A DNA stretch of 43,283 nt from Deltaproteobacteria bacterium (lineage in GTDB: Bacteria > Desulfobacterota > Syntrophobacteria > Syntrophobacterales > Syntrophobacteraceae): positions 1 through 43,283 of the forward strand of contig JAJYTC010000017.1 of the NCBI GenBank assembly GCA_021793275.1, written 5' to 3'. Each line of letters starts with the position of its first letter. Position 1 is the stretch's first letter. Position numbers and translations under genes: made by a program. The notes below the pieces were generated by a model. The model made no database searches, was not told the origin of the DNA, and saw only the letters and a list, made by a program, of their open reading frames with translations. This document shows positions 18,850-23,768 of the stretch, piece after piece.

Positions 18850-19579
18850 ATGGACGATCTGCGTGGTAAGGTGGCGCTCGTAACCGGGGCAAGCCGGGGC
18901 ATCGGGCGAGCTATATCTCGGGTGCTTGCGGAGGCCGGGGTCGACGTCGCCCTCAATTACCTCTCCCGTGAGAAGGAAGCCCGGGAAACCCTGGCCCTGG
19001 TGGCCGGGGCTGGCCGGCGGGGAATTCTTGTCCGGGCGGACGTCTCGAATTCCTCTGAAATTTCGGAGATGATCGGCGCAATCGAGCGCGGTCTGGGGCC
19101 GGTGCAGATACTCGTAAATAACGCGGGGATCGCCATTCGAAAAAGCCTCGAGGAGGTAACCGAAAAGGATTGGGACAGGGTGATCGCGGTCAACCTCAAA
19201 TCGGCCTTCCTGCTCACCCAGGCGGTCTATCAGGGGATGTGCGCATCAGGCTGGGGAAGGATCGTAAATATCTCTTCCACTGCCGCCCAGACCGGCGGCC
19301 TCACCGCGCCCCCATACGTGGCGTCCAAAGCCGGCCTCTGGGGTCTTTCACATTCCTACGCAAAGCAGTTGATAACCTGCGGCGTTACCGTCAATACGGT
19401 CGCACCGGCCCCTGATCGAAACCGATATGGTGCGTGAGATCGAGGCCAAACCCGACCTCATTCCCATCGGCCGTTTCGGCGGAGCAGAAGAAGTCGCCGA
19501 AGCGGTCCTCATGCTGGTGAAAAACGGCTACATGACCGGGCAGACCATAAATGTGAACGGCGGCCTGTATTTTAGCTAG
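18850..19579 (+). pseudogene. Short-chain dehydrogenase/reductase (FabG-like), single-base frameshift near the 3' end
   Basis: NAD(P)-dependent oxidoreductase, probably acting on a 3-hydroxy/3-keto acid or thioester. It has the cofactor motif TGASRGIG (12-19), NNAG (90-93) and the catalytic S142/S143, Y156 and K160 (YVASK). The reading frame breaks in the C-run at 19409-19412. Removing one C restores ALIETDMVREIEA and the normal C-terminal GQTINVNGGLYFS, stopping at 19579, for a 242-residue protein. The open length of 730 bases (3n+1) agrees. As written, the product ends at 19437, lacking the last helix and strand. A decayed second copy of the 3' end at 22769 keeps the unshifted frame at this point. 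Sequencing error and real mutation are both possible. Confidence 0.85.
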
Positions 19580-22761: not shown

Positions 22762-22768
22762 GGGAGAT

Positions 22769-22890
22769 ACGGTCGCGTCGGCCTTGCTCCAAACCGTTAT
22801 GGCGCGTGAGATCGAGGCCGGCTCCGACCTCATTCCCATCGGCCGTTTCGGGCGGCGGGCAAGAAGTCGCCGAAGCGCTCCTCATGCCGG
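22769..22890 (+). pseudogene. Decayed second copy of the SDR 3' end
   Basis: Starting 7 bases after the dehydrogenase stop, this stretch aligns with 19396-19523 of the SDR gene. It shares a 28-base exact block beginning CCGACCTCATTCCCATC, a 16-base block GCGTGAGATCGAGGCC and the block AGAAGTCGCCGAAGCG. It reads VASALLQTVMAREIEA in the uninterrupted SDR frame, then breaks by an inserted G after GRFG (around 22852). No upstream part of an SDR is present. The following bases to 23113 have no recognisable gene. The result is a diverged direct repeat on both sides of the BKACE-HCDH-HCDH genes. Confidence 0.85.
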
Positions 22891-23113
22891 TCCGCAATTC
22901 GGCTCACACGCCTCGGCATAAACAGCCCGGAATCAACGTTTGACGTAGCGCATCAGGGCATGCGTCCGATGGTCATTTTTCGTTTGACTTTCTCTCTGAG
23001 GGAGCCATAAAAGCAAAAACGCTCTCAAACATCGTCGAGCAACTCGGTCTATGGCAGCCCCCTCGTTTCTCATCAGATGACAGCCGAAGTTCACTTCACA
23101 GGAGGCCAAGAAG

Positions 23114-23434
23114 ATGAAAGTGGGAATCGTCTGTTCCACCAAGGACCCGGAAATCCTCTGGAATGCCTTTCGTTTTGCCAACCTTTGCCTCGAAAAGATG
23201 GATGATGTTTTCCTGTTCCTCAACTGCGGCGCGGTGGCATACTATGAGGTGGATTCTCCCAAATATAAGCTCCAAGAGCTTCTTAAGTCCTTTACATTGA
23301 GCGACGGCGTCCTCTATTCCTGAGGGTCCTGCATGCGCTCCCGGGGACTGGGAGAAACAGAGTACGGCGACATGGCAACCCAGCAAAATCTTTACGAACT
23401 CGTTAACACCTGCGACAAGGTGATGTGCTTTTGA
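23114..23434 (+). CDS. DsrE-like small redox protein, probable selenoprotein (UGA at codon 70 read as Sec)
   Basis: Small DsrE/DsrF-fold protein of 106 residues if the in-frame TGA at 23321-23323 is read through. Residues 1-69 match the family start (MKVGIVCSTKDPE, then WNAFRFANLCLE) and 71-106 match its end (CMRSRGLGE, then NLYELVNTCDKVMCF), in the same frame, so there is one gene and no frameshift. The TGA replaces the first Cys of the family's CGxC motif, giving U70-G-S-C73. A GC-rich hairpin with G at the loop start follows 14 bases later, as bacterial SECIS elements require. DsrE-like selenoproteins are known from deltaproteobacterial and marine data. GGAGG lies 8 bases before ATG 23114. 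Likely role: sulfur-transfer or thiol redox chemistry in the cytoplasm. Confidence 0.82.
23321..23354 (+). promoter_or_regulatory. Putative bacterial SECIS of the DsrE-like gene
   Basis: After UGA (23321-23323), CTCCC (23338-23342) pairs perfectly with GGGAG (23350-23354) around loop GGGGACT. The loop begins with G, 19 bases after the UGA, within the range known for bacterial SECIS hairpins that bind SelB. Confidence 0.6.
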
Positions 23435-23483
23435 GGCTTGGCCAAACAGTGGAAAAACTCGGAAGAAGTGAAAAGGAGCAGCA

Positions 23484-23768
23484 ATGAATTTACCCGGGTC
23501 GAAGGCGATAATCGACATTTTCATGACCGACCAGTGAGCATCCGGACCTTACATGGTCGAAGCGGTAAAGGTTTTGCCGCAGGAACTGCAGGAAGTTATC
23601 GAAATCCGGACCTGGAATGTCAAGAAACTCGAAGGGATCAAAAAAAAGAAGGAACTTCGCGCGAAGGTTGTGCCTTCCATCGGGATTAACGGAAAGATTG
23701 TGTTCGGGTCCGGCATTCCCGAGCAGGATGAGCTGATAGCGGCAATAAAGGAACAGATTTCCCTTTGA
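23484..23768 (+). CDS. Thioredoxin-like small protein, probable selenoprotein (UGA at codon 18 read as Sec)
   Basis: Reading through TGA at 23535-23537 gives a 94-residue protein with one thioredoxin-like fold. The first strand is AIIDIFMTDQ, then U18-A-S-G and the helix PYMVEAVKVLPQEL, a middle strand VIEIRTWNV, and the cis-Pro region KVVPSIGINGKIVFGSGIP with a final helix. The TGA falls exactly where these proteins have their active-site Cys after the first strand. AAGGAG stands 5 bases before ATG 23484. The downstream part lacks a good start of its own. It lies 49 bases after the DsrE-like gene and is probably co-transcribed. Partner Cys is absent in the UxxG motif, so it may work as a monothiol/selenol reductase. 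Function is inferred from fold. Confidence 0.8.
23535..23571 (+). promoter_or_regulatory. Putative bacterial SECIS of the thioredoxin-like gene
   Basis: CCTTAC (23547-23552) pairs with GTAAAGG (23565-23571) with one bulged A, leaving a 12-base loop that contains GGTC. GGTC lies 17 bases after the UGA, close to the 18-base spacing of GGUCU in E. coli fdhF. Confidence 0.5.

Follow-up and report, generated by a model that had tools for sequence, protein, structure and literature searches.

DsrE-like selenoproteins have been known since 2005 from the Sargasso Sea and since 2006 from Desulfovibrio vulgaris (PMC1088965, PMC1794560; review PMC13188914). They belong to the Pfam family DsrE (PF02635), carry a UxxC motif and are distributed within the Deltaproteobacteria/Desulfobacterota. 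Their fold is also that of YchN and of TusD/DsrE from the TusBCD/DsrEFH complexes. Among the thioredoxin-like proteins, the closest described selenoproteins are the Sec.1 and Sec.2 types, with PF13192 as their Pfam family and the motifs CxU/UxC (PMC13188914), and the thioredoxin-like (seleno)proteins with a HUIPC motif (NF047660). Another relevant system is the three selenoprotein operon Tso, for which models exist for TsoA (NF045695), TsoR (NF045707) and TsoX (NF045809) (Haft and Tolstoy 2025, as cited in PMC13188914). For the bacterial SECIS element (bSECIS), the published model describes a loop of 3-9 nt with a G in the first two loop positions, a spacing of 16-37 nt and an energy of at most -7.5 kcal/mol (PMC13188914).

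Here we describe two adjacent, co-directional genes within a window of 43,283 nucleotides, i.e. the whole stretch of DNA that was analysed (contig JAJYTC010000017.1 of the Deltaproteobacteria bacterium assembly GCA_021793275.1, family Syntrophobacteraceae). As described in the original prediction, both reading frames contain exactly one in-frame TGA, at codon 70 of a DsrE-like and at codon 18 of a thioredoxin-like gene. We consider it highly probable that both genes are decoded as selenoproteins, that the DsrE-like gene stems from a Tso operon, and that the two are unrelated genes with a lineage-specific adjacency that does not indicate a joint function.

The DsrE-like gene and its selenocysteine codon

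The DsrE-like gene (23114..23434, forward strand) encodes a protein of 106 amino acids with Sec at position 70 in the context YSUGSCMRSRG, and its ATG is preceded by the ribosome-binding-like sequence AGGAGG. The protein matches Pfam DsrE (PF02635) over residues 1-106 with 34.8 bits (cut-off 22.7 bits) and possesses a UxxC motif with Sec in the column of the redox-active Cys. Its predicted structure (pLDDT 96.5) aligns with E. coli YchN at a Z-score of 16.5 and with TusD at a Z-score of 14.2. In the YchN alignment Sec70 takes the place of the first Cys in the motif LCKTC, so that the window protein shares the fold and the conserved Cys position but has Sec instead of Cys. We noticed no partners of the TusB/TusC or DsrF/DsrH type near the gene. 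The gene is a member of the long-known and widespread DsrE-like selenoproteins, with which it has in common the fold, the Pfam family, the position of Sec, the UxxC motif, the bacterial SECIS and the occurrence in Deltaproteobacteria/Desulfobacterota, and from which it does not differ in any essential respect. In contrast, its UGSC letters do not make it a 'UGSC-containing protein': an NCBIfam search with the DsrE-like protein gave no match at E-values up to 1, including the UGSC-containing selenoprotein model NF041046, and we regard the resemblance of the letters as coincidental.

The UGA codon for Sec70 is located at 23321..23323 on the forward strand. This column is occupied by Sec in nearly all homologues and by Cys in one of them (L074) and in E. 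coli YchN. Exactly one TGA is present in 20 of 23 DsrE-like matches from 40 genomes of relatives and in 26 of 28 matches from 395 genomes of the phylum, the window included (25 of 27 without it). The two exceptions are L074, with its Cys, and L075, which has a TAG elsewhere in addition to the TGA. This latter orthologue (L075:1501-1818, forward strand) carries the TAG at a conserved Trp codon and is possibly a pseudogene or affected by a sequencing error. A second in-frame TGA, which ends the window gene at 23432-23434, is the true stop codon, since in the homologues the frame closes at this point (TAA, TAG or TGA), directly behind a conserved Phe that is rarely replaced by Tyr or Leu. The frame does run on beyond this codon (FUGLAKQW), and a second Sec at this position was considered, but the occurrence of TAA and TAG in homologues led us to reject it.

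Compared with six orthologues of the same genus, the DsrE-like gene has dN values of 0.04-0.13 and dS values of 0.5-1.7, which are similar before and after the UGA, and the flanks of the gene do not align with these same orthologues. The bSECIS hairpin (23338..23354, forward strand) consists of a stem formed by 23338-23344 and 23348-23354 and a loop GGA at 23345-23347; it has a spacing of 21 nt from the UGA and an energy of -10.5 kcal/mol and lies within the published bSECIS limits. In 33 distinct sequences it is 97.8% paired, compared with 42-54% when slid, and 35 double-changed cells were counted versus 8.9 in shuffles, with none of 500 shuffles reaching such a value. Because the TGA column is conserved, dN/dS is low before as well as after the UGA and the hairpin covaries, the comparison of sequences establishes that the DsrE-like gene is decoded with Sec.

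The DsrE neighbourhood and the Tso operon

In relatives of the same genus and beyond, the DsrE-like gene is part of a row composed of a TsoR-type ArsR regulator, the selenoprotein TsoA, DsrE and an ArsM-like methyltransferase, the latter being often the gene that directly follows DsrE. TsoA and DsrE occur within 2 kb on the same strand in eight genomes (G004, G006, G010, G020, G039, G183, G299 and G390). Genes for TsoA, with the motif LULAxC, were seen immediately upstream of DsrE orthologues at L112:5793-6239(-), L113:8824-9270(+), L115:3474-3920(-) and L118:7649-8101(-); at the last of these loci Sec is kept in TsoA and Cys is found in DsrE. Upstream of the DsrE orthologue at L116 (G039:C12), a TsoX-like domain is apparently fused to an ArsM-like methyltransferase, and a TGA is located upstream of the called start.

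Unlike these eight genomes, the genome of the window does not contain TsoA, and the locus is not a Tso operon. However, a remnant of a TsoR-type ArsR regulator gene remains at 23030..23075 on the forward strand. It comprises 46 bp with 85% identity, is eroded and no longer a gene, and corresponds to the regulator found upstream of DsrE in relatives. Because this scrap has remained beside it, the window gene is apparently what a decayed Tso operon has left behind. In genome G009 the DsrE orthologue directly follows a mucR gene, near thrS; in the window, genes for an SDR, a BKACE and two 3-hydroxyacyl-CoA dehydrogenases lie between mucR and DsrE. A direct repeat of 125 bp (85%; 22767-22891 and 19394-19518) occurs between the terminal part of a short SDR gene and the stretch before DsrE. 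The short SDR gene encodes 195 amino acids and is probably truncated, and the repeat may mark a rearrangement.

The DsrE family, common in Desulfobacterota, thus recurs inside Tso operons, and the window copy would be the remainder of such an operon. Judging from its fold and its neighbours, the protein would most likely handle sulfane sulfur or selenium, or reduce a metalloid-thiol adduct, within the Tso pathway, with Sec at the position of the conserved YchN Cys and Cys73 as the likely resolving partner. We found no statement on a DsrE-TsoA/TsoR neighbourhood in the literature accessible to us, of which Haft and Tolstoy 2025 is not a part, and we do not claim priority.

The thioredoxin-like gene and its relatives

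The second gene (23484..23768, forward strand) encodes a thioredoxin-like protein of 94 amino acids, with Sec at position 18 (UGA codon at 23535..23537, forward strand) in the context DQUASGPYM and without any cysteine; the ribosome-binding-like sequence AAAGGAG precedes its ATG. The best Pfam match is Thioredoxin_3 (PF13192), which scores 23.2 bits and narrowly misses the cut-off of 24.8 bits, and this best match is shared with the Sec.1/Sec.2 selenoproteins. Those proteins have CxU or UxC motifs, whereas in the window protein Sec is the first residue of a four-residue motif, the last Cys is changed to Gly and there is no other Cys. The best NCBIfam match is HUIPC_Trx_selen (NF047660), with 33.3 bits far below the curated cut-off of 105 bits. 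Proteins of this type occur in the same URO-D cluster of the window's own genome, but their motif is HUIPC and not UASG, and the family of the window protein is a sister family. The predicted structure (pLDDT 83) has a helix at residues 21-29 directly after Sec18, and Foldseek aligns it with solved thioredoxins at an E-value of about 1e-4, which places the protein within the thioredoxin fold. Hence, the assignment to the DsrE and thioredoxin families made in the original prediction is borne out by the Pfam DsrE match and the predicted folds.

The two redox residues (CxxC or UxxC) of a dithiol thioredoxin are not present in the window protein, where Gly replaces the resolving second Cys of the relatives (UAAC/CAAC). 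The original prediction was silent on this point. The window protein thereby varies a type that is already known: it lacks Cys and has Sec as its only redox residue.

The family is rare and was detected in 10 of the 395 genomes of the phylum. At the position of the TGA, most members have Cys (QCAACGYM) and others Sec (QUAACVYM, QUIACVYM), often one of each per genome, and contig C231 of the window's own genome likewise carries two members, one with Sec and one with Cys. Every row that covers this column contains either Cys or Sec; the alignment lacks the beginning of one Sec row, L070. The placement of the TGAs at the redox-Cys position, as originally predicted, is therefore confirmed for both genes by Sec/Cys columns: one TGA in 26 of 28 and one Cys for DsrE, Cys or Sec in every covering row for the thioredoxin family.

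A putative bSECIS hairpin of the thioredoxin-like gene is located at 23562..23580 on the forward strand (stem 23562-23569 and 23573-23580, loop GGU at 23570-23572), 32 nt after the UGA. Its energy is -10.0 kcal/mol and it conforms to the published bSECIS limits. In five Sec sequences, two of which are near-identical, this hairpin is 95% paired with two double-changed, compensating pairs, and in eight Cys sequences the same region is 37.5% paired. A nearer hairpin, GACC-UUACAU-GGUC, was rejected as a bSECIS, since its loop contains no G. On the basis of these sequence comparisons it is very likely that the thioredoxin-like gene is decoded with Sec and is hence a real selenoprotein gene.

It is unlikely, in our opinion, that only the DsrE-like gene encodes a functional selenoprotein while the thioredoxin copy is a paralogue in decay, with UASG marking the loss of function. 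Such a decay would fit the lost resolving Cys, the occurrence in this genome only, the identity of at most 47% to any relative and the long branch (1.42) of the window protein in the tree. This tree puts it nearest to the Sec forms but does not decide between a Sec and a Cys ancestry. Within the class, the search yielded no close orthologue. However, at this divergence the frame is still open over 94 codons, the ribosome-binding-like site, the conserved P64 and the IP motif are kept, and the bSECIS hairpin is maintained with compensating changes.

Elsewhere, genes of this family adjoin those for a URO-D-type methyltransferase, for CobW-type GTPases and for further small thioredoxins, and in genomes G334 and G053 the thioredoxin domain is the C-terminal domain of the URO-D-type methyltransferase itself. 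Two such methyltransferases with a fused C-terminal thioredoxin domain (CAAC), at L065:1191-2555(-) and L066:1486-2835(-), are followed by CobW-type GTPases. The cluster on C231 of the window's own genome (L100, 9000-28999) comprises a URO-D methyltransferase, several small thioredoxins (one with Sec), an SMC-like ATPase, a TSCPD protein, CobW GTPases and a thioredoxin-reductase-like protein. A further thioredoxin-like protein with an in-frame TGA (NUILC) is encoded in the cluster of G247 (L102:9572-9730(-) with its 5' extension).

We regard the window protein as a divergent representative of a Cys/Sec family that would act in URO-D-type corrinoid methyltransferase systems. Since the second Cys is lost, its Sec would have to act as a lone selenol, which, given the fold and the neighbours of the family, might be resolved by an external thiol or might itself be a metal or methyl ligand. 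A more far-reaching and rather doubtful idea is that this Sec takes no part in disulfide exchange but is used as a ligand or acceptor by a metalloid pathway or one of the URO-D-type methyltransferase kind, and that, in addition, the DsrE-like protein belongs to the Tso pathway as a component so far overlooked. If this were true, both proteins would represent Sec chemistries beyond ordinary dithiol redox.

Selenocysteine decoding and the adjacency of the two genes

The original prediction also proposed that the two proteins work together as a sulfur-relay or reductant pair. According to this explanation the genes would be co-transcribed, and the DsrE-like protein would be reduced or reloaded by the Sec-thioredoxin as part of a relay for sulfur or selenium. 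The genes are co-directional, only 49 bp apart and both contain Sec, and a terminator-like match near the end of the DsrE-like gene is weak and within the expectation from shuffled sequences. However, DsrE and this thioredoxin were found adjacent in no other genome among those searched, the two families have different neighbours, with the ArsM-like methyltransferase often following DsrE in relatives and the thioredoxins tied to URO-D methyltransferases, and an ordinary dithiol reduction is impossible for a thioredoxin without Cys. We therefore regard a functional pair as improbable and prefer two unrelated selenoprotein genes, whose adjacency would be a lineage-specific rearrangement.

The energy of the two hairpins was dropped as stand-alone evidence, since it is not significant for the single sequences: 19% and 27% of random TGAs in the window have a hairpin of equally good energy, and the comparison with synonymous recodings gives P-values of about 0.09 and 0.11 for the two genes. 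As the energy alone is within chance, the case for Sec rests on the comparative evidence, i.e. covariation and dN/dS. Of the hairpins first proposed, with G-bearing loops 17-19 bases after each TGA, the G in the loops (GGA and GGU) could be retained but the spacing had to be corrected to 21 nt and 32 nt.

The genome contains a tRNA-Sec gene (selC) with the anticodon TCA on contig C140 (74 bits), selA on contig C273 (selA was present in all 40 genomes of that search) and selD on contig C115, which itself has one TGA and is Sec-containing. The selB gene was detected as fragments at contig ends that cover the model positions 1-97, 58-328 and 444-580. By this content of selA, selB, selC and selD genes the genome is that of a Sec-decoding organism, with selB in pieces. 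SelB and Sec-tRNA would read the internal UGA of both genes, probably helped by the hairpin downstream of each codon, whose loop begins with G. That neither TGA is decoded and both genes are nonsense-mutated pseudogenes is extremely improbable, and for the DsrE-like gene already contradicted by the comparisons: each TGA alone looks like a stop codon and the hairpin energies are ordinary, but TGA occurs in the same column across the phylum, purifying selection acts on the DsrE-like gene before and after its UGA, covariation is strong and the Sec trait is complete except for the fragmented selB.

Standard gene callers truncate or overlook both genes, which means that the selenoproteome of such Desulfobacterota is under-annotated. 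Through the DsrE-TsoA neighbourhood, an orphan selenoprotein family that has been known since 2005 gains a context that can be tested. The lone-Sec thioredoxin, from a family elsewhere fused to a corrinoid-type methyltransferase, may serve as a system for asking what role Sec plays when no resolving Cys is present.
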